A stretch of DNA of 32,544 nucleotides from Adlercreutzia sp. ZJ473. Lineage in GTDB: Bacteria; Actinomycetota; Coriobacteriia; Coriobacteriales; Eggerthellaceae. Positions 2,470 to 31,858 of the stretch are shown here, piece by piece. Where the stretch lies: NCBI RefSeq assembly GCF_013185065.1, contig NZ_JAAVTO010000030.1, forward strand, positions 1 through 32,544, written 5' to 3'. The notes beneath the pieces are model-generated. The model did not search any database and was not told the DNA's origin. It saw nothing but the letters and a program-made list of their open reading frames with translations. How positions within the stretch are numbered: position 1 is the stretch's first letter; every line of letters begins with the position of its first letter. The position numbers and the translations under genes were made by a program.

Positions 2470-3222
2470 CTACAGGATGCTTGCCATGTAAAAGCCGTAA
2501 CGAGAGACGCAAAGCGCCGCGACAGCAAGCACTGCCACGACTACGCTCGCCGTCCGGGGTGCAATCTTGCCTGCGCGGGTGACGAACGCCACCGCGCCAG
2601 CCGCGAGCGCCAGCGCAGCGCCGGCGCCGAGGCACAGCGCATCCTCCCCAAGCCCTGCGAATACAACCGCCTGCCAGGCAAGCACGCAGGCAAGCAGCAC
2701 GCCGAGCATGCCGAGCACCAGCGCAAGCGCGCCGTCAAGCTTACCGCGCAGCACCGCCCACAACGCCATGCCGGCGGCGAGGCCGCCGACGAGGAACAGC
2801 GGCAGCGTCGGCGCGGCAATCCACGCGACAACGCCGTACGTTGTCGCGTACGCTCGCGTCATCACGAGCATCAGCACGACGCCGATCACGGCGCCGACTA
2901 TGCGCACACCGCGCGATGCGCGCTTCTTCGACACGCAGAACACCAGGTCAACCGCGGCAACTACGCCAAGCGCGCACGCCGCGATGCCCTCCGAGGTGAG
3001 CGCGCTCGCGGGATTGTTGAGCACCGTCAGCGCCAGCGCAGGGCGCCCGAGGTGCCCGAGTGCGCCGAAGCAGCCCGCCGCCACCAACACGAGAGCGATC
3101 AGGGGGAACAGCCACGGGCGAGCGGTCTCGCGCTCGTCGGGGAACGTCGCCGCGCCCACGTAGGCGCCCGCAGCCAAGCCCGTGAGCACGGTGAACGCCA
3201 GCAAGGGGAATTCGGAAATCAT
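2470..3222 (-). CDS. DmsC-like membrane anchor subunit of molybdoenzyme
   Basis: Integral membrane protein of 250 residues, last gene of the A-B-TorD-C operon. It has about eight hydrophobic segments and starts MISEFPLLAFTVLTGLAAG, which resembles the beginning of DmsC/NrfD-type quinol-oxidising anchors. GHLGRP at about residues 56-61 is a motif common in DmsC proteins after the second helix. The expected role is to bind the catalytic dimer to the outer face of the membrane and pass electrons from menaquinol to the Fe-S subunit. Start ATG 3222 is preceded by a modest AGGACGG. Specific substrate unknown. Confidence 0.85.
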   Translation of the reverse strand: MISEFPLLAFTVLTGLAAGAYVGAATFPDERETARPWLFPLIALVLVAAGCFGALGHLGRPALALTVLNNPASALTSEGIAACALGVVAAVDLVFCVSKKRASRGVRIVGAVIGVVLMLVMTRAYATTYGVVAWIAAPTLPLFLVGGLAAGMALWAVLRGKLDGALALVLGMLGVLLACVLAWQAVVFAGLGEDALCLGAGAALALAAGAVAFVTRAGKIAPRTASVVVAVLAVAALCVSRYGFYMASIL

Positions 3223-3243
3223 GGTATACCAACCGTCCTAAGT

Positions 3244-4230
3244 CTAGTTGAGGGGAACAATCTCGTTGTCTACGATGCCGAACGGGCGCAGGGTCGCAAG
3301 CGCCGCGAGCGCGTCGTTCGCGGCGGCAAGCTGCTCGAAGCCGCCCGCCGCCTCCGCGGGCAGGGCGCCCGACTCCGCCCAGAACGCCGACTCCTCCAAG
3401 AGCACGACGTCCACCTGCGCAAACGCCGCGAGCGCCTCGAGCAGCTGCGGATAGAGCACCGCACGCGCACCCGCCTTGGAGTTGCGCACGCTCTTCGCGT
3501 ACACGCCGAGCCACGGCGTCAGGTGCGCGGAGGCGAACGCCTCTTGCGCCCTCAGCTGCCGCGCGAGGTCGTCGGCGCGTCGTGCGCGAAACGCCGCGAG
3601 CGAGCGCCCGGCCAGCTGCGCCATGAACGCGCACAGGGCGGACACATGGTCGTCGGGCACCGCCTGGACGCGCCGCAGGGAAAAGCCTTGCTCGCGATAA
3701 GCCGCGCGCACCGCAAGCGTGTTCGCCTGGAACAGCGCCGCATCGTGCGCGCCCGTGTACGGCGACTCGTACGGGGAGGCTGGCAGGGCGCCCGGGCCCA
3801 CGAACACGCGCACGTACTCATCGCGTGCGGCGTCGAGCAGCTCCGCCGCAGCCGTCGCGCCGAGGTGAGCAGGCGCCGACGGGCTCGCGGCGGCGTCAGC
3901 GGCTCCAACGGCCCCGGCCGCTCCAGAGCCATCGCCGGCGCCGCAGCAGCGCGCCCGCATGTCCGCCAGAAACGCCGCGAACCCCGCGAGCACATCGCTT
4001 CCCTGCGCGAGCTCCTCAACCACGTCCGCGGTCGCCTCGCTGAGAAGCGCCCCGAGAACCGCCTCGTCAGGCACGCCTCCCGTCAGCTTGTGAAAGAGCG
4101 TGTACAGGTGGGCGCGCGCCACCAGAAGCGCCTCGAGCTGCAGCGCGTCGCTTGCGCACTCGGCGCGCTCGGCGCCGCCAGCCCGCTCGTCCACGCGCCC
4201 GGCGTCTTCCCGCCCGGCACCGGCCGTCAT
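3244..4230 (-). CDS. TorD/DmsD-family molybdoenzyme maturation chaperone, long form
   Basis: Cytoplasmic all-helical chaperone expected to bind the Tat leader of the catalytic subunit and keep it competent for cofactor insertion. The family signature is clear: EYVRVFVGPG...PASPYESPY in the middle and VPDDHVSALCAFMAQL after it. At 328 residues it is longer than the usual 200-220: there is an acidic N-terminal extension of about 28 residues, an Ala/Gly-rich insertion after RARCCG, and a C-terminal extension of about 60 residues. The start ATG overlaps the stop of the Fe-S subunit gene (ATGA), which indicates translational coupling. A later internal start is possible but none has a better ribosome site. 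Confidence 0.88.
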   Translation of the reverse strand: MTAGAGREDAGRVDERAGGAERAECASDALQLEALLVARAHLYTLFHKLTGGVPDEAVLGALLSEATADVVEELAQGSDVLAGFAAFLADMRARCCGAGDGSGAAGAVGAADAAASPSAPAHLGATAAAELLDAARDEYVRVFVGPGALPASPYESPYTGAHDAALFQANTLAVRAAYREQGFSLRRVQAVPDDHVSALCAFMAQLAGRSLAAFRARRADDLARQLRAQEAFASAHLTPWLGVYAKSVRNSKAGARAVLYPQLLEALAAFAQVDVVLLEESAFWAESGALPAEAAGGFEQLAAANDALAALATLRPFGIVDNEIVPLN

Positions 4231-4805
4231 AGCGTGACCGCCTGAGCACCTTCGCGCAGCGCCGCCGCGGCGGGCGTCACCAAGACGTTCGGCGACGTGT
4301 AGGCTGCGCTCGGCAGGTACGGCAGCTCGCTCACCGCGTCGTCTCCGTACTTCGCGCGCAGCTCGTCCATATCGCCGAAGTCAAGCGCGCGCATGGGGCA
4401 CGCCGCCACGCAGACGGGCTGCATGTCAGCCGCGCGCAGGTCGATGCAGCTGTCGCATTTCACGATCATGCTGGTGACCTCGTCGAACTGCGGCGCTCCG
4501 TAGGGGCACGCCGCCATGCACATGCGACACTGCACGCACTTGCCGTCGTCGTGCAGCACGATGCCGCTCGCGTCTTTGTACATCGCCGTCGTGGGGCAGT
4601 TCGCCACGCACGCCGGGTTCTCGCAGTGGTTGCAGCTCATCACGTGGTGAAACAGCGCGGCGTCGGGGTACTCCCCGCACTCGAAGGTGTCCACGCGGCG
4701 GGGGCGCGGCCCGCACGCATGCATGTCGTGACGGTCCTTGCACGCCACCTGGCACGTGCGGCACCCGATGCAGCGCTGCATGTTGAAGTAGAATCCGTAA
4801 GCCAT
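4227..4805 (-). CDS. DmsB-like four-cluster [4Fe-4S] electron-transfer subunit
   Basis: 192-residue polyferredoxin. Four Cys groups are visible in order: CIGCRTCQVAC, CNHCENPACVANC, CVQCRMCMAAC and CDSC...CVAAC, each ending in the usual Pro or basic residue. It would carry electrons between the membrane anchor and the catalytic subunit. It has no signal peptide of its own, as usual for B subunits that are exported with the Tat-borne A subunit. SD AGGAGGAGACGGTC precedes ATG 4805, 12 nt after the catalytic gene. Confidence 0.95.
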   Translation of the reverse strand: MAYGFYFNMQRCIGCRTCQVACKDRHDMHACGPRPRRVDTFECGEYPDAALFHHVMSCNHCENPACVANCPTTAMYKDASGIVLHDDGKCVQCRMCMAACPYGAPQFDEVTSMIVKCDSCIDLRAADMQPVCVAACPMRALDFGDMDELRAKYGDDAVSELPYLPSAAYTSPNVLVTPAAAALREGAQAVTL

Positions 4806-4817
4806 GACCGTCTCCTC

Positions 4818-7715
4818 CTAGTTCTCGTTGCTCGCCGCGTACATGGCGGCGGGGTCGGCGAGGTACGCGGGCGCAGCCGCGTCGTCAACGCCTGCGGCGA
4901 AGAACGGCGCGCGCTCGAAGTCCTCGCACAGCGGCTCCCCGTCGTACTTCTTCACCTCGATGAGCAGGCTGTTGTAGCCGTTCAGGTGCGGGAAGTAGTT
5001 GGACAGCTGATGGTCGGAGAGCATCTGCTCGCTGCCGCCGCGGTCGATGATGTCCTCGGGATCGCTCTCGTCGAACACCGAGTGCACGCCATGCGGGATG
5101 GCGACGGTTCCGGGCATCATGGATTGCAGCGGCTGCGCGATGCGCAGCATCTTGCCGAAGTCGTTGAAGCACATGACGGTGTCGCCCGCCTCGATGCCGC
5201 GCTCGGCGGCGTCCGCGGCGTTCATGAACACCGGGTTGCGGAACGCCTCCTGCGTCCACGCCATGTTGTCGTAGCACGAATGCGCACGGCGCATGTAATG
5301 CGGGGTGAACGCCTGCAGGGGGAACTTGCCCTTCTCCTTGGTCTCCCAGTTCGCGAAGGTCTCCTGGTAGCCGCGGCGCGGCACGAAGTAGTTCGCATAG
5401 GGCTTGAGGGGCTCGTCGGCGAGACCCGTGCGGTTGACGTTGTCGGCCTTGAACTGGCAGTAGATCTCCAGCTTGCCGGAAACCGACGGGCGCGGCCAGG
5501 CGGTGTCGGCCACGACCACCGACTCGCCATCTTCCCCGATGCCCAGCTTGTCGTCGCGGTAGCCCACGTAGTTGCGCGCGTCATCCGCAGAGCGCGTGCA
5601 CACGTAGCAGCCGTCGGCCATGAACTGGTCGAAGGCCACCTTTCCCTCCTGGGTCGGATAGCTCGCGTGGTACTTCTCGTTGTCCTCGTCGGTCCAGGTG
5701 ATGACGGGCTCCCACTTCGACAGGTCGGGCGCCAGCTCGCGCATGCCCAAAAAGTAGCCGAGCCACTGGTCGTAGTTGCTCTTCGGGTAGGCGTCGTCGG
5801 GGTTCGCGCCCATGCGCTCGATGATCTCGCGGAACACCTGCTTCTCGTCGCGGGCCTCGTACAGCGGCTTGATGAGCGGGCGCCACGCCAGAAGAGCGTC
5901 CTTGCGCTGCTTCTGGCCGTTGCCGTCGCCGAACGGGCTCGGCCAGGCAAGCTCCCCCCAGCTCTCGTCGTCGTTGCCCTCCCAATGGGTGATAACCGGC
6001 AGGATGATGTCGGCGAACTGGGCCGTCAGCGACAGCTTGATCTCGAAGGACACGCACGTGTCGGCCTGTCGCATCACCTTGATGGCCGTATTCAGGTCGC
6101 CGCGCGTCTGCATGAAGTTCGAGTTGGTGGCGATCAGCAGGCGCGGGTTGACCTCCATCTCCTGCGCCTCATGATAGGTGGGCGTGTTGGCGCGCAGCTT
6201 CGTCGGGTCGTTCACCGCGTCGGAAGAGCCCAGGTCGAAGGGGCCGTCGGAGGTGGTGATGTACCTTCCGTCCAGCATGCAGCGCCACCAGGCGGGGCCT
6301 TCGATGTTCTTGCCGGGACCGGTCACCGCAGGCGAGCCCACCAAGTTGTCGATGTAGCCGTAGTCGCCGCCCGCGTGTTGGATGAGACGGTAGCCCGAGT
6401 CGCCCGCATCCCATGTGTAGATGGCCGCCGAGCCGTGGCCCGACTTGCCGTAGTGGCCGCCTAGGGCCGACACGGTCATGAACGCCTGGGGAAGGTTCTC
6501 CGCGCCCAGGTAGCGGGAGGAGGCGTAGCTGTGCAGGAAGACGACCTTGTTCTCCTTGCCCGCGAGCTCCGCGTACCAGGTGATGTCCTCCACCGGCGTG
6601 CCGCAGATCTCGGCTGCCCACTCCGGCGTCTTCGGCGTGTCATCGTAGGCGCCCAGCACGTAGTCGCGGAAGTTCTCGTCGAGCTTCGCGTCGGCCGGCA
6701 TGGTCTCAGGCGTGAACCCCACCGTGCGCTCGTTCACGAAGTCCCAGTCGATGACGTTGCCGCGCTCTTCGTCAAGGCGAATCATCTCGTAGATGACCGC
6801 CAGCAGAAACGCTGTGTCAGTGCCGGGGCGCACGCGAATCCAGCGAGCGTCCAGCGACGAGGCCGACTCGTTGTAGTTCGGCCCCACGTACACGAACTGC
6901 GTGCCGGACTTCTTGGCGTTGTGCAGCCAGTACATGGAGGAGTAGTGGCACCATGCGGGATTGCAGCCGTACAGCACGATGGTGTCGGCGTTCGGCAGGT
7001 CGTACTTGTCGGGCGCCATCATGATGTCGGGATGGTCGCCCCACGAGTACATGCCCAAAGCCTCGGTTTGGAAAGCCCACGTGCCGAACGACTCAACCTC
7101 GGAGTCGTAGATGGCGCCGCCGATGACGGGGAACATCGCCGAGCCGGGCGCCCAGCGCCAGGCGTTGCAGATGACGCCCTTCTCACCGTATTCCTCGTAG
7201 ACGCGCTTCAGCTCGTCGACCACGTAGGTCAGCGCCTCGTCCCAGCTGATGCGCTCCCACTCGTCCTTGCCGCGCAGCTCGCCGTGGGCGTTCTCGCCGC
7301 CGCCGGGCTGCCAGCTCTTGCGCTTCATGGGGTACTTGATGCGGTCGGCGTTGTACACCTGCTGGCGAAGCGAGCGCCCTCGCAGGCAGCCGCGCTGCTG
7401 GGGGCAGTCGAAGCTGTCGGCATGCGAGTCGTCGGTCTTCTGGCGCACCACCACGCCGTCGACCACGTAGCCCATGTTCAGGCACATCTGGTTGCAGTTC
7501 TGGTGGCAGTGGATGGGCATCCACTCGCCCTTCCCGTCGACGACCTCGTCATCATGCGCCACGGCGTCGTGCGGCGCGGCGCCCCCGTTCGCACCCGCCT
7601 CAGCGGCATGCGCCGTGCCCGCACCTGCGGCATGCGCCAGCGCAGCGGCAGCGGCAGCCCCTGCGCTCAGGTGCAGAAAGTCGCGGCGCTTGATGCTTCT
7701 GTCAAGAAGTGACAT
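4818..7715 (-). CDS. DMSO-reductase-family molybdopterin oxidoreductase catalytic subunit, Tat-exported
   Basis: 965 residues from ATG 7715, chosen because AAGGAGGAG lies 8 nt upstream and the protein then begins MSLLDRSIKRRDFLHLS, a proper Tat leader followed by an Ala-rich hydrophobic segment and an AHA cleavage region. An in-frame start 81 nt earlier has no such site. Cys70-X3-Cys74-X3-Cys78-X31-Cys110 is the FS0 [4Fe-4S] motif; LYGCNPAW, RPGTDTAFLLA and the C-terminal dinucleotide-binding region (MMPGTVAIPHGVHS) fit the family. The molybdenum ligand position is not obvious: the region before SWGDHPD has no clear Ser or Cys aligned with that of E. coli DmsA. Substrate therefore remains open; DMSO reductase is only the family name. 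First gene of the operon, divergent from a LysR regulator. Confidence 0.93.
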   Translation of the reverse strand: MSLLDRSIKRRDFLHLSAGAAAAAALAHAAGAGTAHAAEAGANGGAAPHDAVAHDDEVVDGKGEWMPIHCHQNCNQMCLNMGYVVDGVVVRQKTDDSHADSFDCPQQRGCLRGRSLRQQVYNADRIKYPMKRKSWQPGGGENAHGELRGKDEWERISWDEALTYVVDELKRVYEEYGEKGVICNAWRWAPGSAMFPVIGGAIYDSEVESFGTWAFQTEALGMYSWGDHPDIMMAPDKYDLPNADTIVLYGCNPAWCHYSSMYWLHNAKKSGTQFVYVGPNYNESASSLDARWIRVRPGTDTAFLLAVIYEMIRLDEERGNVIDWDFVNERTVGFTPETMPADAKLDENFRDYVLGAYDDTPKTPEWAAEICGTPVEDITWYAELAGKENKVVFLHSYASSRYLGAENLPQAFMTVSALGGHYGKSGHGSAAIYTWDAGDSGYRLIQHAGGDYGYIDNLVGSPAVTGPGKNIEGPAWWRCMLDGRYITTSDGPFDLGSSDAVNDPTKLRANTPTYHEAQEMEVNPRLLIATNSNFMQTRGDLNTAIKVMRQADTCVSFEIKLSLTAQFADIILPVITHWEGNDDESWGELAWPSPFGDGNGQKQRKDALLAWRPLIKPLYEARDEKQVFREIIERMGANPDDAYPKSNYDQWLGYFLGMRELAPDLSKWEPVITWTDEDNEKYHASYPTQEGKVAFDQFMADGCYVCTRSADDARNYVGYRDDKLGIGEDGESVVVADTAWPRPSVSGKLEIYCQFKADNVNRTGLADEPLKPYANYFVPRRGYQETFANWETKEKGKFPLQAFTPHYMRRAHSCYDNMAWTQEAFRNPVFMNAADAAERGIEAGDTVMCFNDFGKMLRIAQPLQSMMPGTVAIPHGVHSVFDESDPEDIIDRGGSEQMLSDHQLSNYFPHLNGYNSLLIEVKKYDGEPLCEDFERAPFFAAGVDDAAAPAYLADPAAMYAASNEN

Positions 7716-7766
7716 ATCTTGCTCTCCTCCTTCTTCCGTTCCGTGCCTTCGGAACCTCTGGACAGG

Positions 7767-7796
7767 AGAATACGGAGTAGACACAAGGTATGACAA
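7767..7796 (-). promoter_or_regulatory. Candidate promoter of the molybdoenzyme operon
   Basis: On the minus strand TTGTCA (7791-7796), 18 bp, TATTCT (7767-7772), about 50 nt ahead of the ATG. The -35 element lies inside the palindrome at 7786-7802. Confidence 0.6.
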
Positions 7797-7918: not shown

Positions 7919-8806
7919 ATGGAGATACGGACCCTCAGGTACTTCCTCGCCGTGGCGCAGGAGGGCAGCCTCTCGCATGCCGCCAAGCGGCTGCACGTCA
8001 CCCAGCCCACGCTCTCGCGGCAGCTCGCCGCGCTCGAGGACGAGCTGGGACGCCAGCTCTACACGCGTGGGCACGCGGGCGTCTCCCTCACCGAGCACGG
8101 CGCCATGCTCGCGCGCTACGCCGAGAGCATCGTGGAACTCGCCGACAAGGCGCAGGCCGACATCTCGCTGCCCGCCAAGACCGTCTCGGGCAGCGTGCAC
8201 ATAGCCGCCGGCGAGACGCGGCTCGTGGGCACGCTCGTTGAGGCGATGCGCCGCGTGCGCGACGCCTACCCCCTCATCGACTTCCAGCTGTACAGCGGGA
8301 CCACGTCGGATCTGATGGACGGGCTCGTGCGCGGGCGCTTCGACCTCATGCTCGAGTGCGAGATGCAGGCGCACGTGAACCTGAACGCCCTCGTGCTGCC
8401 CGAGCGCGACCGCTGGGGCATGGTCATGCGCCGCGACGACCCGCTCGCCTGCCGCGCGAGCGTGGGGCCTGCGGACCTCGAGGGGCGGGCGCTCATCACC
8501 CCGCGGCAGGGGGCGAACGCCGAGCCGCTGCGCAGCTGGCTGGGGTCCCTCGCGGAGACCGCCGAGATCATCGCCGCGTACGACCTGCCCTCCAACGTGC
8601 AGTGGCTCGTGGAGCGGGGTTTTGGCATCGCCTTCACCTACGAGGGGCTGATGTCGTCGGACGGGTCCAGCAAGCTCGCCTTCGTGCCGCTTGAGCCTCG
8701 CATCGAGTCGAGGCAGGGCATCATCTGGCGCAAGTCGCTGCCCACCAAGCAAGCCCAGGTATTCCTCGACGTCCTGCACGAGGTGGTGGAAGAGGCGGCG
8801 AAGTAG
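7919..8806 (+). CDS. LysR-family transcriptional regulator of the molybdoenzyme operon
   Basis: 295 residues. N-terminal winged HTH is typical (MEIRTLRYFLAVAQEGSLSHAAKRLHVTQPTLSRQ), followed by an effector-binding domain of periplasmic-binding-protein fold. Start ATG 7919 follows AAGGAG. It is transcribed away from the molybdoenzyme operon across a 200-bp region with a shared palindrome, the usual layout for a local LysR activator. In Eggerthellaceae many molybdoenzyme operons sit beside their own regulator, and the substrate or product of the enzyme is the natural candidate effector (inference). Confidence 0.93.
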   Translation: MEIRTLRYFLAVAQEGSLSHAAKRLHVTQPTLSRQLAALEDELGRQLYTRGHAGVSLTEHGAMLARYAESIVELADKAQADISLPAKTVSGSVHIAAGETRLVGTLVEAMRRVRDAYPLIDFQLYSGTTSDLMDGLVRGRFDLMLECEMQAHVNLNALVLPERDRWGMVMRRDDPLACRASVGPADLEGRALITPRQGANAEPLRSWLGSLAETAEIIAAYDLPSNVQWLVERGFGIAFTYEGLMSSDGSSKLAFVPLEPRIESRQGIIWRKSLPTKQAQVFLDVLHEVVEEAAK

Positions 8807-26079: not shown

Positions 26080-27219
26080 TCACCCGACCGGTGCGCCGTA
26101 CAGCATGAGCTCGCTTTCGGGCGGGACGTACAGAACGTGGTAGTCACCGAACTCGTCGACGTTGCCGTTCGCGGCGAGCGGCCCGCTCACGAAATTGCGT
26201 CCCATCTTGAAGGTCGCGCCGGTGAGCTGCCGAACGCTGTAGCCGACATCTGAGTACCCACGCGTGAGCTCGCCCCACCGCTCGGACGGCACGAACACCA
26301 TCACGTCGCCCGTTTCGGCAAAGGCAGGAGCGTCTGCGAGGCAGGCGTACGCGTCGCCGAAGGTGACGCACGAATCGTAGGGCTGGAGCTTCTCGCCCGC
26401 GCCCTCGTCCAAGCGGTCGAAGAGCACCCCCATACGTTCCGAACCCCAAAAGCAGAAGCCAGAGCCCTCGGAGAGGGGCAGTTCGGCGCAGGCAACGCCC
26501 TCCTCCCCTCTCGTGGCGTGAAGGCACGAGGCAAGGTAGGGCAGGCAGCACTCAGGCTGAAACGCCCACGAGGCCGACCGATCGTTCGCTAGGGCGCGCT
26601 CCCACGAAGGCATGTCCGCGACCGTCAGGCACCAGGCCTCGTCGAAGCCCTCGGGCAGCTTCGCGAGACCGGCGGGCGCTTCGTCGAAGACGAGGGTGCA
26701 GCTCATGTCCTCCGCCTCGGCGCATAGTTGCTCGATGTTGGCGCCGTCGAAGAGCGCGCCCCACGTCACGGGACAGCTCGTCAGCTGCCCGTCGAGGGGC
26801 TTCGGGAGCCCCGCTGAGGTGACGAGGTGGTCGACGAGGGCCTCCTCCACTTGCGCACTTTGCCGACTGTCGCCCGCCCCCACGCCGTCGACGACGTCGA
26901 CGGCGAACGTCTCACCCGCACACGACACGATCACCGGAACGCCGCTGAACGAGGCCTTGTCCCAGGTCGACCCCTCGGCGGGAACCCCGCCCTCGAGCCC
27001 TTCGCCAGCAGCGGGCTCAACCTCGACGCCGTACTTCTCCAGGCAGTAGGACACCGCGCCCGTGAGCGCCTCGTCGCGCTCGTCCTGCGTCATCGCCGTC
27101 GACGAAGACTCAGACACATGCCGCACCTCCGACGAACAGCCAGCAAGCCCCCACAACCCTGGCAGCGCGAACGCCATAACCGCAACTGCAACCGTCACCG
27201 CAAGGAGAAGCCTGGTCAT
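26080..27219 (-). CDS. Lipoprotein of unknown function
   Basis: 379 residues from ATG 27219, with GAGGGG 6 nt upstream. Signal peptide MTRLLLAVTVAVAV... ends in lipobox LAG-C28, so it is anchored on the outer face of the membrane. The mature part is acidic, with scattered cysteines that could pair, and no family I recognise. GC content is higher than that of the next gene upstream. It follows the secreted-protein gene on the same strand but is separated by a terminator-like hairpin (27303-27333), so expression may be independent. Confidence 0.8.
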   Translation of the reverse strand: MTRLLLAVTVAVAVMAFALPGLWGLAGCSSEVRHVSESSSTAMTQDERDEALTGAVSYCLEKYGVEVEPAAGEGLEGGVPAEGSTWDKASFSGVPVIVSCAGETFAVDVVDGVGAGDSRQSAQVEEALVDHLVTSAGLPKPLDGQLTSCPVTWGALFDGANIEQLCAEAEDMSCTLVFDEAPAGLAKLPEGFDEAWCLTVADMPSWERALANDRSASWAFQPECCLPYLASCLHATRGEEGVACAELPLSEGSGFCFWGSERMGVLFDRLDEGAGEKLQPYDSCVTFGDAYACLADAPAFAETGDVMVFVPSERWGELTRGYSDVGYSVRQLTGATFKMGRNFVSGPLAANGNVDEFGDYHVLYVPPESELMLYGAPVG

Positions 27220-27290
27220 TGAGAACCCCTCACAAGAATCACCAACCAAACGTCGCATACGAACCCTCCGCGCTCAAGCGATTATGCTCG

Positions 27291-27352: not shown

Positions 27353-28453
27353 CTATAGCCTTTCGAACGAAAATTCACCAACAACAGAACCATCTTCGGA
27401 GTAAACCGGCATAGACACCATCATCGAAGGTCGTGCAAGTTCGAAGATAGCATCGAAGTCATCCTCCAAAACGTTAATGCCATCTGCTTGGCCCAAAGAA
27501 GAAGCCTTGGCACCTTCCGACATCGCATCAACAGCAGCAGCTTTACCGTCTTTATAACGGATGCTCATTACGCACTCCAGCGCACTTTCATAATCGAGCG
27601 CATCTATACCGTAATACTCTTCAAAGGCCTCTTTGAGAGCCGCCGCCTCCATCTTCGCATTTTCCTCGATAGCCTGAAGGCGATCTTCGTCGGTAACGGC
27701 ACCGTTATATATGACATCATCCATATCCGCAATGACGATATAGCCTATTTCGCTGTTCGACGCCTCGACGCGACCCATGTCCGGCATAACGGTTTCGCCA
27801 TTCTCGTTCGTATACGGAACACCATATACCAAACCATCTTCACCCACGAAATTGTGCATACCGGGCGTCCACTCAGCCGCATTCGTACCGGTATCTTCAC
27901 CAGCAGACATTATGCCTGGATCGGTCAGCGTGAGGAGAAAAATGTTGCTGGAAGTAACCTCGTAGCTAGCTGACGAGTTGGATTTCACCGTTCCATACCC
28001 CCAAGCAGCAGCTCCTTCGGAGTAATTGATCGTATGCGACAAGGATCCTTGAACATAGGAGCCTTTCGAGCTGCCACCCCAATTCGTTACAGCGGTACCC
28101 CAATGCATAGTTTCAGTACCAAGTGCATTTCCGACGGTAATGCCAGCTTGAGAGGTAATAGAACCACTCGAAGCCGCTTGGCTCGTACAAGCTATGTTCA
28201 TGAACGAGTAGCAGTCAGCCGAATAGTATCCCATTTGATTGTAGGCGCCCGTATTGTACGAAGTGTATGTTGGGGACACATACCAGTATTTTGACGGGGA
28301 ATGCTGAATAAAGTTGTATGCGAACGCAGAACCGACTGGCAGAGCAGAAGCCAGCACTACGCATAGAACAACAGAGACGAGCTTTGTAATCACCCTGCTC
28401 TTCGATCCGTTCTCATCGCTCCAGGAAGCATTCAAAGAATGAGAGCTAGTCAC
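27353..28453 (-). CDS. Secreted protein of unknown function in the RiPP island
   Basis: 366 residues from GTG 28453, chosen because AAAGGGG precedes it; an ATG-like start further upstream has no ribosome site. A signal peptide (VITKLVSVVLCVVLASALPV then GSAFA) is followed by a Ser/Tyr/Gly/Asn-rich stretch and then a more acidic, conserved-looking half (GLVYGVPYTNENGETVMPD, IGYIVIADMDDVIYNG, EAFEEYYGIDALDYE). The second half reads like a regular folded domain, the first like an extracellular beta-rich region. Low GC compared with the flanks suggests acquisition. Its upstream region shares a motif with the maturase promoter. Not recognised. Confidence 0.82.
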   Translation of the reverse strand: MTSSHSLNASWSDENGSKSRVITKLVSVVLCVVLASALPVGSAFAYNFIQHSPSKYWYVSPTYTSYNTGAYNQMGYYSADCYSFMNIACTSQAASSGSITSQAGITVGNALGTETMHWGTAVTNWGGSSKGSYVQGSLSHTINYSEGAAAWGYGTVKSNSSASYEVTSSNIFLLTLTDPGIMSAGEDTGTNAAEWTPGMHNFVGEDGLVYGVPYTNENGETVMPDMGRVEASNSEIGYIVIADMDDVIYNGAVTDEDRLQAIEENAKMEAAALKEAFEEYYGIDALDYESALECVMSIRYKDGKAAAVDAMSEGAKASSLGQADGINVLEDDFDAIFELARPSMMVSMPVYSEDGSVVGEFSFERL

Positions 28454-28483
28454 CAAACCCACCCCTTTCCAAAAGAACCTTAC

Positions 28484-28513
28484 AATATGACAAGAATTGT
28501 CGACAAAATGCAA
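28484..28513 (-). promoter_or_regulatory. Candidate promoter of the secreted-protein gene
   Basis: Minus strand TTGCAT (28508-28513), 18 bp, CATATT (28484-28489). Moderate match only. Confidence 0.4.
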
Positions 28514-28560
28514 GGTGCCACGGACAAGACTATCGTAGCGTGCGATAACGCAAATGATTC

Positions 28561-28593
28561 TCAACTAAAAGCTTGGATAACCAACTATTGGTT
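28561..28593. promoter_or_regulatory. Shared operator-like motif plus small palindrome before the secreted-protein gene
   Basis: TCAACTAAAAGCTTGG (28561-28576) closely matches CCCAACTAAAAGTTGGG at the maturase promoter, with ten bases CAACTAAAAG identical. Directly beside it AACCAA-CTA-TTGGTT (28579-28593) is a perfect inverted repeat. The latter could also be the weak terminator hairpin of the HTH gene. Confidence 0.6.
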
Positions 28594-28601
28594 TGCTATC
28601 T

Positions 28602-28820
28602 TTAAGAGATCTCTTCATCCTCTACGTAATCGAGAATGTCTCCTGGTTTGCAGCCGAGCTCGCGGCAGAGCGCGTTAAGCGTGGAGAAGCGCATGGCCCT
28701 GACCTGGCCGGTCCTTATGCGCGAGAGATTGTTCTCCGACAGGCCAATCCTCTCAGCAAGTTCTTTCGAGCGAATCTTCCGCTCGGCGAGCAGCTTATCC
28801 AAATTGACGACTACGGCCAC
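28602..28820 (-). CDS. YozG-type XRE/Cro helix-turn-helix regulator
   Basis: 72 residues, GTG start with GAGG 6 nt upstream that overlaps the end of the DUF2975 gene. HTH block KLLAERKIRSKELAERIGLS then ENNLSRIRTGQVRAMRFSTL, ending ALCRELGCKPGDILDYVED, the hallmark of YozG-like regulators. These are regularly found immediately after DUF2975 membrane proteins, as here (8 nt gap). The pair may sense or protect the membrane; in this place an immunity or feedback role toward the peptide is possible but unproven. Confidence 0.9.
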   Translation of the reverse strand: MAVVVNLDKLLAERKIRSKELAERIGLSENNLSRIRTGQVRAMRFSTLNALCRELGCKPGDILDYVEDEEIS

Positions 28821-28828
28821 AAAGCGCC

Positions 28829-29374
28829 TCAGATCACGTCATCTGAGACGCTTTGCAGCATCACGCCGTACTTGAAGACAAAAGAAAGCAAAAACAGAGC
28901 GAGGGCTGCAACAACGGCCGCCATGTTGACCTTATAGACGTATGCATGAACGTACCCGCCCAGCATAATTCCGTTGCAGTTGAATAAGACAGAGCAGGGC
29001 TCAAGAAAGAAGTCGATCACCGCGAAAGTGACAATCATACCCACCACGATTCGCATTCGCTTGACCTGCGCCATTGAGAAGGGTGAAATGCCTCGCGAAA
29101 CCTCCTGGCACACATTCGACAAAATCCAGAGGGGCAGAACAAAACAGAAGGCTTGAGCCACGACAAGGAGAGCATCTACTACGGTTCCTTCCTTGGACAC
29201 GATCTCCACACAAGGAAGAAAAGTGTTCAAGAAGAGCAGCAGAAACGGGAGGACGTTGAGGGCCAGCACGAGGACGACGATAGCCCTAAGGATCACGACG
29301 GCAACCGCACTTCCCCTAGAAATCGCAGCTAAATACCCTTCCACATCCCTCGCCTTTACTTCCGTATCAGCCAC
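28829..29374 (-). CDS. DUF2975-type four-helix membrane protein
   Basis: 181 residues from GTG 29374 (GGCGGAGGG upstream). Four membrane segments at about residues 22-50, 66-86, 106-126 and 148-170. CQEVSRGISPFSMAQVKRMR between helices 2 and 3 is the characteristic DUF2975 loop (the G-x-PF block). It sits 32 nt after the 27-codon peptide gene on the same strand, so it is probably in the same transcript as the maturase. Proteins of this sort have no known biochemical role; immunity to the neighbouring peptide is a hypothesis. Confidence 0.85.
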   Translation of the reverse strand: MADTEVKARDVEGYLAAISRGSAVAVVILRAIVVLVLALNVLPFLLLFLNTFLPCVEIVSKEGTVVDALLVVAQAFCFVLPLWILSNVCQEVSRGISPFSMAQVKRMRIVVGMIVTFAVIDFFLEPCSVLFNCNGIMLGGYVHAYVYKVNMAAVVAALALFLLSFVFKYGVMLQSVSDDVI

Positions 29375-29406: not shown

Positions 29407-29490
29407 TTAATAGCCCACGTGAATGCACACGGATCCGTACCCTATGGGAAAACAGATCCCCACTTCCGCTCCGTCATTATGGAAAAGCAT
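29407..29490 (-). CDS. Candidate RiPP precursor peptide, 27 residues
   Basis: ATG 29490 is preceded by an optimal SD AGGAGG at 7 nt; this SD overlaps the stop codon of the radical SAM gene, so the two are translationally coupled. The first ten residues (MLFHNDGAEV) would be a short leader. The rest holds two aligned heptads, ICFPIGY and VCIHVGY, joined by Gly-Ser and ending exactly at the stop codon: [IV]-C-[FI]-[PH]-[IV]-G-Y. One Cys per repeat is a natural site for radical SAM thioether or C-C chemistry. No known RiPP precursor family is recognised. Peptide identity rests on position, SD and internal repeat; it is too short for homology evidence. A longer in-frame version upstream inside the maturase gene is not supported. 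Confidence 0.72.
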   Translation of the reverse strand: MLFHNDGAEVGICFPIGYGSVCIHVGY

Positions 29491-29501
29491 CTCGTCACCT
29501 C

Positions 29502-30734
29502 CTAGTTTAACCTTGAAGCGATGTCCTTCATCCGGCGATCGTAAACTCGCCGGATCATTTCGCAATACGTATCTCTTCCGCACACCCCCTCTCCTCCGGC
29601 AACAGCGCGCGCACGGCAACCTCCCCCGCAGAAGAGGCGCGTGTTACATGCGCTGCAACCTTCATAACTACGTGCATCGAGCGACGCGAACAGGCGCGCA
29701 ACCTTGCCCTGAAGCGTCTCGCTGAGCGGCTGCCTGAACACATTCCCCATGAGAAACCGCTCGTCGTGAAGCATATGGCAGGGAAACACGCTGCCGTCAG
29801 CCGCAACGCTCACCAAAGACGATCCCGCCCCGCACGAGTTCCTCGCCACGAGCCCTGCGCCGAGGGGAGCGTCGCGCGGCGCTGCATGCGGTGCGGCACA
29901 TATCGCCTCGGCGAGCGGCTCCATATCCTCCTCGCCGAAGCACAGATCCGTCACGTCACCGTTGCACGCCGATCGGGAAAACAAGCTGAAACTCAGGTCG
30001 ACGCCCATGTCTTGCGCGAGCTTCGCATAACGCGGTATGTCGCCCAAGTTCCTCGCGTGGATCGTCGGCAGGATCTGCACCTTGACGTCGACGCGCTGGA
30101 GCGCTCGCACGGCTGAGACCAGCTGGCCAAATCGCTGTTCGCCTCGCACATAGGCCGGACCGTCATCGGAGCAGCCGTCGAAGGACACCGCCACATGATC
30201 GACGAAAGGAGCAAGAGAGGCTAGATCAGCTTTCTCCACCAGCATGCCGTTCGTGAGCACGCATACCTGCTCTACTCCACATCCCTCTTTCGCGTAGCGG
30301 ATGAGACCAGATAGATCTTCGCGCAGAAAAGGCTCACCACCTGACACGATGAGCAGTGAGACACCCGCCTCACTCAGATCGCGTACGGCATGCTCAAGCT
30401 GTTGGAGGCTGGGGTCAGGCAGCGTGTTTCGTCCCGCGTCTCGCGAGTAGCAACCCGTGCATTCAAGGTTGCAGCGCTGGGTTACGTGCAGATACGCTGC
30501 CGCCAGGCGTCTTGGGCCCTTCGGTTCCGCGAAGAACCCGTGCTCTTCCAGGCGCCGGTAGAGACCCTCGTCAGTTTCCCTGATAAGCCGAGCATCAGCC
30601 ACTCCACGAAGCACCGCGTCGCACGCACGAGTCGCCGCCTTGTCCAGCCCCACGATGCAGCCGTTTTCCCCGTTGCCGATCACGGTCATTCCGAGCAAGC
30701 TAGTCATGTCAACCTGAGAACCAAAGGTTTGCAT
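29502..30734 (-). CDS. Radical SAM/SPASM peptide maturase with PqqD-like N-terminal domain
   Basis: 410 residues from ATG 30734 (GAGGGG 6 nt upstream). Residues 1-75 resemble a PqqD-like RiPP recognition element (CIVGLDKAATRACDAVL, then GLYRRLEEHGFF). The radical SAM cluster is C88-x3-C92-x2-C95, with SGGEPF at 131-136 for SAM binding. The C-terminal SPASM domain has C301 and C319, then C360-x2-C363-x5-C369-x3-C373, C385 and C391, enough for two auxiliary [4Fe-4S] clusters. Enzymes of this make install thioether, C-C or similar cross-links in ribosomal peptides. The candidate substrate is the 27-residue peptide encoded 11 nt downstream. First gene of the operon, divergent from a LysR gene. 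Confidence 0.92.
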   Translation of the reverse strand: MQTFGSQVDMTSLLGMTVIGNGENGCIVGLDKAATRACDAVLRGVADARLIRETDEGLYRRLEEHGFFAEPKGPRRLAAAYLHVTQRCNLECTGCYSRDAGRNTLPDPSLQQLEHAVRDLSEAGVSLLIVSGGEPFLREDLSGLIRYAKEGCGVEQVCVLTNGMLVEKADLASLAPFVDHVAVSFDGCSDDGPAYVRGEQRFGQLVSAVRALQRVDVKVQILPTIHARNLGDIPRYAKLAQDMGVDLSFSLFSRSACNGDVTDLCFGEEDMEPLAEAICAAPHAAPRDAPLGAGLVARNSCGAGSSLVSVAADGSVFPCHMLHDERFLMGNVFRQPLSETLQGKVARLFASLDARSYEGCSACNTRLFCGGGCRARAVAGGEGVCGRDTYCEMIRRVYDRRMKDIASRLN

Positions 30735-30786: not shown

Positions 30787-30815
30787 TATATAGACCAGTA
30801 CGCATTCCCAACTAA
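30787..30815 (-). promoter_or_regulatory. Candidate promoter of the maturase operon
   Basis: Minus strand TATATA (30787-30792) as -10, 17 bp, with a poor -35 TTAGTT (30810-30815) that falls inside the palindrome at 30807-30823. A weak -35 overlapped by an operator is what an activator-dependent promoter looks like. A CCGGC/GCCGG hairpin (30773-30786) lies just downstream in the leader. Confidence 0.55.
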
Positions 30816-30823
30816 AAGTTGGG
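30807..30823. promoter_or_regulatory. Palindromic operator CCCAACT-AAA-AGTTGGG
   Basis: Perfect 7-bp arms between the divergent maturase and LysR genes, over the -35 of the maturase promoter. Ten of its bases recur upstream of the secreted-protein gene, and its half-sites differ by one base from CCCAGCT/AGCTGGG at the LysR promoter. The nearby LysR protein is the likely binder. Confidence 0.7.
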
Positions 30824-30891
30824 TATCTGAACTTTTTCTCTCCCTTTTCTGTAATTCCCCTTTACGTACATCAGAAAATCCATGTTTATCA

Positions 30892-30937
30892 TTGATTACC
30901 ATTCACCCAGCTACGATAATCCAAGATGAAAGCTGGG
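30892..30937 (+). promoter_or_regulatory. Promoter of the LysR gene with embedded inverted repeat
   Basis: TTGATT (30892-30897), 17 bp, GATAAT (30915-30920). The inverted repeat CCCAGCT (30907-30913) / AGCTGGG (30931-30937) overlaps the spacer and the start region, fitting self-repression. Confidence 0.65.
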
Positions 30938-30952
30938 AGAGGGGAACGCCTT

Positions 30953-31858
30953 ATGAACCTGGCTCAATTTGAATACCTCATAGCGCTCGCAGAAACGAGC
31001 AGCTACGCGCAGGCGGCCAAGAAGCTCTACATAAGCCCCCAAGCCATCTCGAAGTCCATAGCGGACATGGAGCGAGAGCTCGGCGCAAAGCTCGTCGAGA
31101 AGTCAGGCCGCGGGATAGCCGTTACGCCCCTTGCGGTAGAAGTCGCCCGCCTCGCGGAATCGGCGCTGCAAAGCGTTTCGGAAATGCGAAGCCTCGCAAA
31201 GTACCAGGCGGAGCCGCGTGGCACTGAGGACAAGCTGCGCCTCGGTGTTCTTGCAACCCCCTACCGAGGGAGCCCCTTCGGAGAGAACGCCTTCAACCGT
31301 TTCGAGAGCAGATACCCCGACGTACGCCTCAAAGTATCGTTTCACTCTAGCGAGGCCTGCCTCACAGCCCTGCTCGAAGGTGTCGTCGACGCGTCAATCG
31401 TCATGGGAAGGCCCTTCCAATCTGAAATCGCGAGCAGCAAGATAATGTCAATTCGCCCCGTCGCGACGATGTCGACGAGTCGCGCCCGAAGCTATGCAGC
31501 CAGCGTGACGTTCCTCGACATCGCCGCCGCCCCTTTGGCCATGCCCTATGATCTGAGGTGCGGGTACGCTATCCTCGCAGGCGCCCTGCAGGAGCGCGGG
31601 CTGACGCCCAAGCTCGTTAACGTGGCGCCGAGCCTTGAGGCGCAACAGGCGTTCATCGTCGAAGGCGGGATGATCCTTTGCTTCAGAAACACACCTCTGC
31701 CGAGCCTCATTCCCGAAACCGTTGCAATCCCCCTAAGCACCAGCGAGGAGGCAACCTGGCCCATCTACCTCGCGCACAAAAAGGAGCAATTCTCCCCCGC
31801 GATCGCGTCTATGCTTGATCATCTGCGCACCGCCGCAAAACGCAACTGGCTCGAGTAG
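30953..31858 (+). CDS. LysR-family regulator, probable controller of the RiPP island
   Basis: 301 residues from ATG 30953, which gives the usual LysR opening MNLAQFEYLIALAETSSYAQ and has GAGGGG 8 nt upstream; an ATG 27 nt earlier is less likely. HTH AAKKLYISPQAISKSIADME, then a sugar-binding-fold effector domain from about residue 90 (LRLGVLATPYRG). It is divergent from the maturase with a palindrome on each promoter. The second recognition of the motif ahead of the secreted-protein gene suggests that it controls the whole island (inference). Confidence 0.92.
   Translation: MNLAQFEYLIALAETSSYAQAAKKLYISPQAISKSIADMERELGAKLVEKSGRGIAVTPLAVEVARLAESALQSVSEMRSLAKYQAEPRGTEDKLRLGVLATPYRGSPFGENAFNRFESRYPDVRLKVSFHSSEACLTALLEGVVDASIVMGRPFQSEIASSKIMSIRPVATMSTSRARSYAASVTFLDIAAAPLAMPYDLRCGYAILAGALQERGLTPKLVNVAPSLEAQQAFIVEGGMILCFRNTPLPSLIPETVAIPLSTSEEATWPIYLAHKKEQFSPAIASMLDHLRTAAKRNWLE

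Follow-up and report, generated by a model that had tools for sequence, protein, structure and literature searches.

A conserved two-cysteine precursor peptide and its radical SAM/SPASM maturase in Adlercreutzia sp. ZJ473, with a DUF2975-like membrane protein and an HTH regulator as constant partners

The window, that is, the whole stretch of DNA analysed, comprises positions 1-32,544 (32,544 nucleotides) of contig NZ_JAAVTO010000030.1 from Adlercreutzia sp. ZJ473 (assembly GCF_013185065.1). On its minus strand lie, all in the same direction, genes for a radical SAM/SPASM maturase of 410 residues with an ATG start (29502-30734), a precursor peptide of 27 residues (29407-29490), a DUF2975-like membrane protein of 181 residues with four hydrophobic segments (28829-29374) and an HTH_26 (Cro/C1) regulator of 72 residues (28602-28820). 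The 27 codons of the peptide ORF run from an ATG at 29488-29490 to a TAA at 29407-29409 and encode MLFHNDGAEVGICFPIGYGSVCIHVGY, composed of a leader, MLFHNDGAEVG, and a core, ICFPIGYGSVCIHVGY. Within the core are two heptads, ICFPIGY (29437-29457), which contains the first Cys and Gly as C1-x3-G1, and VCIHVGY (29410-29430), which contains C2-x3-G2 and ends at the last residue of the peptide. An AGGAGG Shine-Dalgarno sequence (29498-29503, minus strand) overlaps the TAG stop codon of the maturase gene (29502-29504) and stands 7 nt ahead of the peptide ATG; the same hexamer, or a near variant of it, precedes the peptide in most homologues. The original prediction had described this 27-codon gene, its ideal Shine-Dalgarno sequence overlapping the maturase stop and its two heptads, and a re-reading of the sequence bore out each of these features.

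Several observations led us to set aside the reading of the peptide as a chance ORF. A peptide-profile search of the 2.63-Mb genome of this organism returned a single site, the window locus, whose own sequence was part of the profile. Among 27 aligned peptides of the window's type (type A, defined below), the L-F of the leader, both Cys and both Gly were invariant. Over 16 near pairs of peptide genes, one pair of which was entered twice, the pooled pN/pS was 0.28 (pS 0.42, pN 0.12), and the peptide is under purifying selection.

Homologues of the maturase, 34-48% identical to the window protein, were found in 67 of the 396 genomes of the class, spanning 25 genera, all in one order and distributed over three families; sampling of the phylum gave no further homologues. 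Searches of genome contigs and viral contigs with the maturase returned only unrelated radical SAM proteins, phage records held no close relative, and a plasmid search gave one informative match, in Streptococcus salivarius. The window and 71 further loci with a homologous maturase made up a set of 72 loci. At 67 of these 72, a peptide ORF of 21-64 residues with a strong ribosome site adjoined the maturase gene, or lay a few genes upstream of it, in the same direction; these ORFs began with MLF, or with VQF in two cases. Loci lacking the peptide, which would have spoken against the predicted pair, numbered five, and all five have an explanation: L085 and L101 run into contig ends, L117 has a peptide core at the same place but in another frame (a frameshift), and L057 and L096 have no peptide nearby and one encoded elsewhere in their genomes (G085 and G048). 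Within the family, the maturase was present in 33 of the 34 genomes with a peptide match, the exception being a marginal match (E 0.009). Together, these data support the peptide and maturase being a genuine and undescribed precursor/maturase pair, conserved among Coriobacteriia of the gut; no paper on such peptides in Coriobacteriia was found in the open-licence literature.

The peptides were of two types. In type A, to which the window peptide belongs (45 of 45 adjacent peptides), the core reads C-x3-G, three to five residues, C-x3-G, usually one hydrophobic residue and the stop codon, a few peptides being tailed. In type B (23 of 23) it reads C-x8-G-x-stop, with a single core Cys, and most such cores fit C-x2-[IV]-x-G-[IV]-x-[IV]-G-x. 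Type B forms one side of the maturase tree and is separated from type A by one change on it; it is without the second Cys and the conserved first Gly, and retains the first Cys and the last Gly, which are present in all peptides of both types. The residue following the last Gly varies (F, A, I, Y, L, M, V or none). As a separate observation, peptides with a tail of 8-12 residues past the last C-x3-G (L166, L168, L169, L071, L077, L079, L080 and L058) cluster on the DUF2975 tree (96/92) in a group that takes in unlinked copies from other genera, and the tail may be a follower that is removed.

The window maturase exceeded the Pfam cut-offs for both Radical_SAM (68 bits) and SPASM (38 bits). Its C88-x3-C92-x2-C95 cluster was invariant in 42 homologues, as were all seven SPASM cysteines (C301, C319, C360, C363, C369, C373 and C391), which bears out the earlier description of a maturase with a CX3CX2C cluster and a full SPASM Cys set. 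The 'PqqD-like' label given to its N-terminal domain was not confirmed: Pfam PqqD had no match at E<1 in any of 42 maturase homologues, an hhalign comparison with four PqqD-like proteins, which had too few relatives for a strong PqqD profile, gave a probability of 0.9% and was not significant, and single-sequence AlphaFold models, one of the whole maturase and one of the N-terminal domain, were poor (pLDDT 42 and 55). Those low-confidence models show a b-b-a-(b)-a order, which would fit a PqqD-like fold, and we suspect that this region of approximately 75 residues may be a leader-binding RRE.

No NCBIfam family scored above its cut-off for the window maturase; the mycofactocin maturase model appeared among the matches, and the best match was StsB, which is a family of sactipeptide maturases. 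The streptosactin system of streptococci (GggA/GggB; StsB) resembles the one described here in its short precursor and radical SAM/SPASM maturase, and the two unnested Cys-to-alpha-carbon thioethers of its product, with Gly among the acceptors, can be likened to the links proposed below. However, the streptosactin links are Cys25-Ser28 and Cys31-Gly34, i.e., from Cys to residue i+3 (PMC8172795), whereas the spacing is C-x3-G (i+4) in all 45 type A peptides. In addition, streptosactin is under Rgg/SHP, whereas there is no Rgg here and the constant partner is the DUF2975 protein with the HTH regulator. With a score of 126.9 of the 625 bits required and a spacing other than i+3, membership of the StsB family was rejected. 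The ranthipeptides of the freyrasin/PapB kind share the i,i+4 spacing repeated along the core, freyrasin having a C-x3-D motif (PMC9413430). The acceptor there is a side-chain carbon of Asp or Glu, whereas the Gly at this position here offers an alpha carbon only; given the lack of an acidic acceptor at i+4 and a PapB model score of 71 of 340 bits, membership of this family was likewise rejected. By sequence profile the nearest solved structure was 5WGG (E 1.7e-31), that of CteB, a maturase of the SCIFF/CteB type. SCIFF precursors carry six Cys in about 45 residues; the window peptide has two, there is no six-Cys peptide, and TIGR03974 reached 65.5 of 425 bits, and SCIFF membership was therefore set aside.

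The S. salivarius match is a plasmid locus (L148; NZ_CP018188.1, 116798-129637) whose maturase is 34% identical to that of the window, has a related N-terminal domain and is split by the insertion sequence ISSag10 carrying lnu(C). The ORF at 2604-2711 of this locus, MLKFSTKKTKKAGCVSVGALVSVSIGHYIKEVKSTV, was the top-scoring of 131 ORFs against the peptide profile (E 0.04-0.05) and has one C-x3-G and an S-x3-G, with a single Cys. Based on this maturase and ORF, the peptide idea may extend beyond Coriobacteriia. The plasmid locus has other neighbours than those described here, namely a CPBP protein, ABC transporters and LytTR/GHKL regulators, with no DUF2975, and these suggest a route of export and sensing that is missing at the Coriobacteriia loci.

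With regard to chemistry, the maturase very probably cross-links the peptide cysteines. The spacing of the Gly acceptors would be compatible with a thioether of the sactipeptide kind, from Cys sulfur to an alpha carbon, and since Gly has no side chain, an S-C-alpha thioether is the simplest reading. The maturase would oxidatively join core Cys to Gly in this manner, with a maximum of two bonds (-4 Da) for type A, as in the window, and of one (-2 Da) for type B. The original prediction was of a single modification per repeat, at or from the Cys of that repeat. This is plausible for type A; it cannot hold for type B (23 loci), where there is a single core Cys, and so is not general. The connectivity in type A could be of local C-x3-G rings (C1-G1 and C2-G2), for which the i,i+4 motif of PapB and, at i,i+3, streptosactin would provide precedent, or of a nested hairpin (C1-G2 and C2-G1). 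On the assumption that linked residues are retained or lost as a pair, the core patterns favour the nested arrangement a little, as type B is missing C2 and the conserved G1 together and retains C1 and G2.

The functional unit extends beyond what the original prediction had covered, as the genes for the DUF2975 protein and the HTH_26 regulator (28602-29374) are constant partners that had been overlooked. By family profiles, each was present at 66 of the 72 loci. The window regulator passed the HTH_26 (PF13443) cut-off of 22 bits with 86 bits; the membrane protein scored 18.6 bits with DUF2975 (PF11188), or 25 bits in the genome search, against a gathering cut-off of 27, and its four-TM layout fits that family. 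In the alignment of the DUF2975 proteins, a positively charged inner loop (FSD..KG.SPF...Q.RRLR; P98, F99, Q103 and R106) and the C-terminus (FKYG.LLQ..SDETL, with YG..LQ..SD) were conserved, and the outward loops and TM1-3 were variable, the topology being taken from hydropathy and charge only. Searches of the open-licence literature on DUF2975 and YoaS/YozG found nothing functional and essentially no DUF2975 papers; YoaS is itself a DUF2975 protein. One exception to the four-gene set was L090 (genome G111), where two peptide genes follow the maturase in tandem and the 4 kb covered contain neither a DUF2975 nor an HTH gene.

A peptide-profile search of the family revealed several diverse peptide paralogues or cassettes per genome and, in several genomes, unlinked precursors far from the maturase gene. 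Nine of the unlinked precursors were convincing, all with two C-x3-G units; a DUF2975 gene lay directly downstream in nine of nine, an HTH gene accompanied seven, and none had a maturase gene. These counts indicate that the constant partner of the peptide is the DUF2975 protein and that the maturase must act in trans.

All-against-all clustering of the neighbours identified no exporter, dedicated transporter or protease conserved across the loci and nothing else constant beyond DUF2975/HTH; the divergent LysR gene of the window (30926-31858, plus strand; Pfam LysR_substrate and HTH_1) belongs to a cluster represented at 22 of the loci. In the window, the LysR/maturase intergenic region contains an inverted repeat (30797-30833) with the core CCCAACT-TTT-AGTTGGG on the minus strand, a possible operator. 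In one clade (L053, L055, L059, L061-L066 and L068), a different palindrome, GTAAY-N6-RTTAC, is situated approximately 130-157 bases upstream of the maturase gene, mostly accompanied by a divergent LysR gene, and is a probable LysR operator.

The peptide and DUF2975 genes were found to vary jointly. In four pairs of loci from different species (L056/L060, L062/L066, L052/L061 and L110/L114), maturase identity is 94-97% and that of the HTH regulators, where present, 88-99%, against only 56-71% for the peptides and 28-59% for the DUF2975 proteins; the DUF2975 frame of L110 is shortened near a contig end. DNA identity is approximately 0.97 up to the last bases of the maturase gene, 0.63-0.72 in the peptide gene and approximately 0.4-0.5 over most of the DUF2975 gene, and climbs to approximately 0.9 at the HTH gene (approximately 0.75-0.97 through this gene in the first three pairs); L110/L114 shows the drop as well, its contig ending before the HTH gene, and so does L051/L052, where it begins past the peptide. 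The synonymous sites of DUF2975 are near saturation whereas maturase dS is approximately 0.2, which indicates an exchange of diverged cassettes whose flanks stayed constant. Within one clade, of 16 loci, the partial Mantel correlation of peptide with DUF2975 given the maturase was 0.69 (P 0.0005), and that of peptide with HTH was -0.20, i.e., no correlation. Over all type A loci the peptide-DUF2975 partial correlation was 0.34; in type B it was absent (-0.11). In type A, the peptide and DUF2975 genes were thus exchanged jointly, and we read them as an exchangeable specificity cassette. As the two genes are neighbours, one recombination tract could shift both without functional matching, and physical neighbourhood could account for part of the correlation.

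The partnership of DUF2975 and HTH and the joint variation with the peptide tell more of function than the maturase does. On balance, we think it probable, if far from certain, that the locus encodes a radical SAM RiPP with one or more Cys-Gly thioethers, and that its cognate DUF2975 protein recognises it and signals to the HTH regulator, confers immunity, or both. The maturase would recognise the short conserved leader (MLF[YH]S[DE]...) and, being generic, could also serve unlinked precursors. The processed, presumably exported peptide would be recognised by the DUF2975 protein, its proposed cognate receptor or immunity partner, by way of those outward-facing and membrane portions that differ along with the peptide. 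A relay to the HTH_26 regulator, proposed as the output of the membrane protein, would run via the inner loop and the C-terminus, both conserved, and let the cell sense, and/or be protected from, its own peptide. Points against this reading are the lack of a constant exporter or protease, the missing correlation in type B, the pair L051/L052, in which the DUF2975 proteins differ (61% identical) with the peptides alike (89%), and the lack of profile support for the leader-binding domain.

A less probable but serious contender, which overlaps the preferred reading where signal and immunity stay undivided, is that the peptide is a bacteriocin killing or inhibiting close kin without the matching DUF2975, the latter being the immunity protein whose expression the HTH regulator tunes, as with SdpR/SdpI (PMC13343845). 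The peptide is always accompanied by a variable membrane protein, genomes hold several cassettes, and streptosactin, which is made by the named maturase nearest to this one, is inhibitory to the strain producing it (PMC8172795, PMC13361665). However, the conserved gene set is without an exporter or processing protease, and the core is very small and hydrophobic. It is unlikely that the peptide instead stays in the cell, or in its membrane, and switches DUF2975 from within; the absence of a transporter, the short hydrophobic peptide and the constancy of the DUF2975/HTH pair would agree with such a regulator, but allele-like exchange of peptide and DUF2975 between species is typical of recognition between cells, and the variation in DUF2975 takes in the outward loops. 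A 2009 survey of toxin-antitoxin systems noted Xre/YoaS-like membrane gene pairs and then set them aside (PMC2701414), but we regard it as very improbable that the HTH/DUF2975 pair is a module of this kind merely accompanied by an unrelated small ORF, as this ORF has invariant Cys and Gly, a strong Shine-Dalgarno sequence and purifying selection, and accompanies the maturase across genomes. A redox cofactor resembling PQQ or mycofactocin, derived from C-terminal residues, is scarcely credible in spite of the short precursor adjoining a radical SAM/SPASM enzyme, the G-aromatic C-terminus of some peptides and the mycofactocin model match, because the position following the last Gly is not a conserved one, some peptides have tails of 6-33 residues, genomes hold several diverse paralogues, and the loci have no dehydrogenase or later pathway genes.

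To return to the preferred reading of a thioether peptide recognised by its own DUF2975, known systems offer a parallel. In ComX/ComP and AgrD/AgrC, a peptide covaries with the membrane protein that recognises it, and the genes on either side are more constant, as is the case for the peptide and membrane protein here; the differences are that the modifying enzyme is constant here and that the membrane protein does not belong to the histidine kinases. We tentatively put forward, as a rather doubtful elaboration, an allele-typed radical SAM peptide pheromone with a generic maturase, in which swappable cassettes of peptide and DUF2975 determine which cells hear, or survive, which others, in which a membrane/HTH pair takes the place of a histidine kinase or Rgg-type receptor as the reader, and in which the links are nested (C1-G2 and C2-G1), with one Cys reacting backwards.

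What is new here is the DUF2975/HTH partnership and the exchangeable cassette. Coriobacteriia would gain an unnamed RiPP family that is simple to handle experimentally (27 residues, two C-x3-G units and one enzyme), and an orphan DUF2975/HTH pair gains a candidate peptide ligand. The natural allele pairs, with the same maturase and a different peptide and DUF2975, permit direct tests of recognition, and the occurrence of two-Cys and one-Cys forms within a single enzyme family provides a natural experiment on how the cross-links are arranged.

Other genes of the window were also noted. Right after the HTH gene is a gene for an exported-looking protein of 403 residues (27353-28564, minus strand) with no Pfam, NCBIfam or PHROG match, and at 26080-27258 (minus strand) one for a putative lipoprotein or exported protein of 392 residues with no Pfam match. 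Judged from translations only, positions 2470-7796 (minus strand) hold a molybdopterin oxidoreductase-like, membrane-anchored operon (catalytic subunit, four-cluster ferredoxin, chaperone and anchor), beside which lies a LysR gene (7919-8806).
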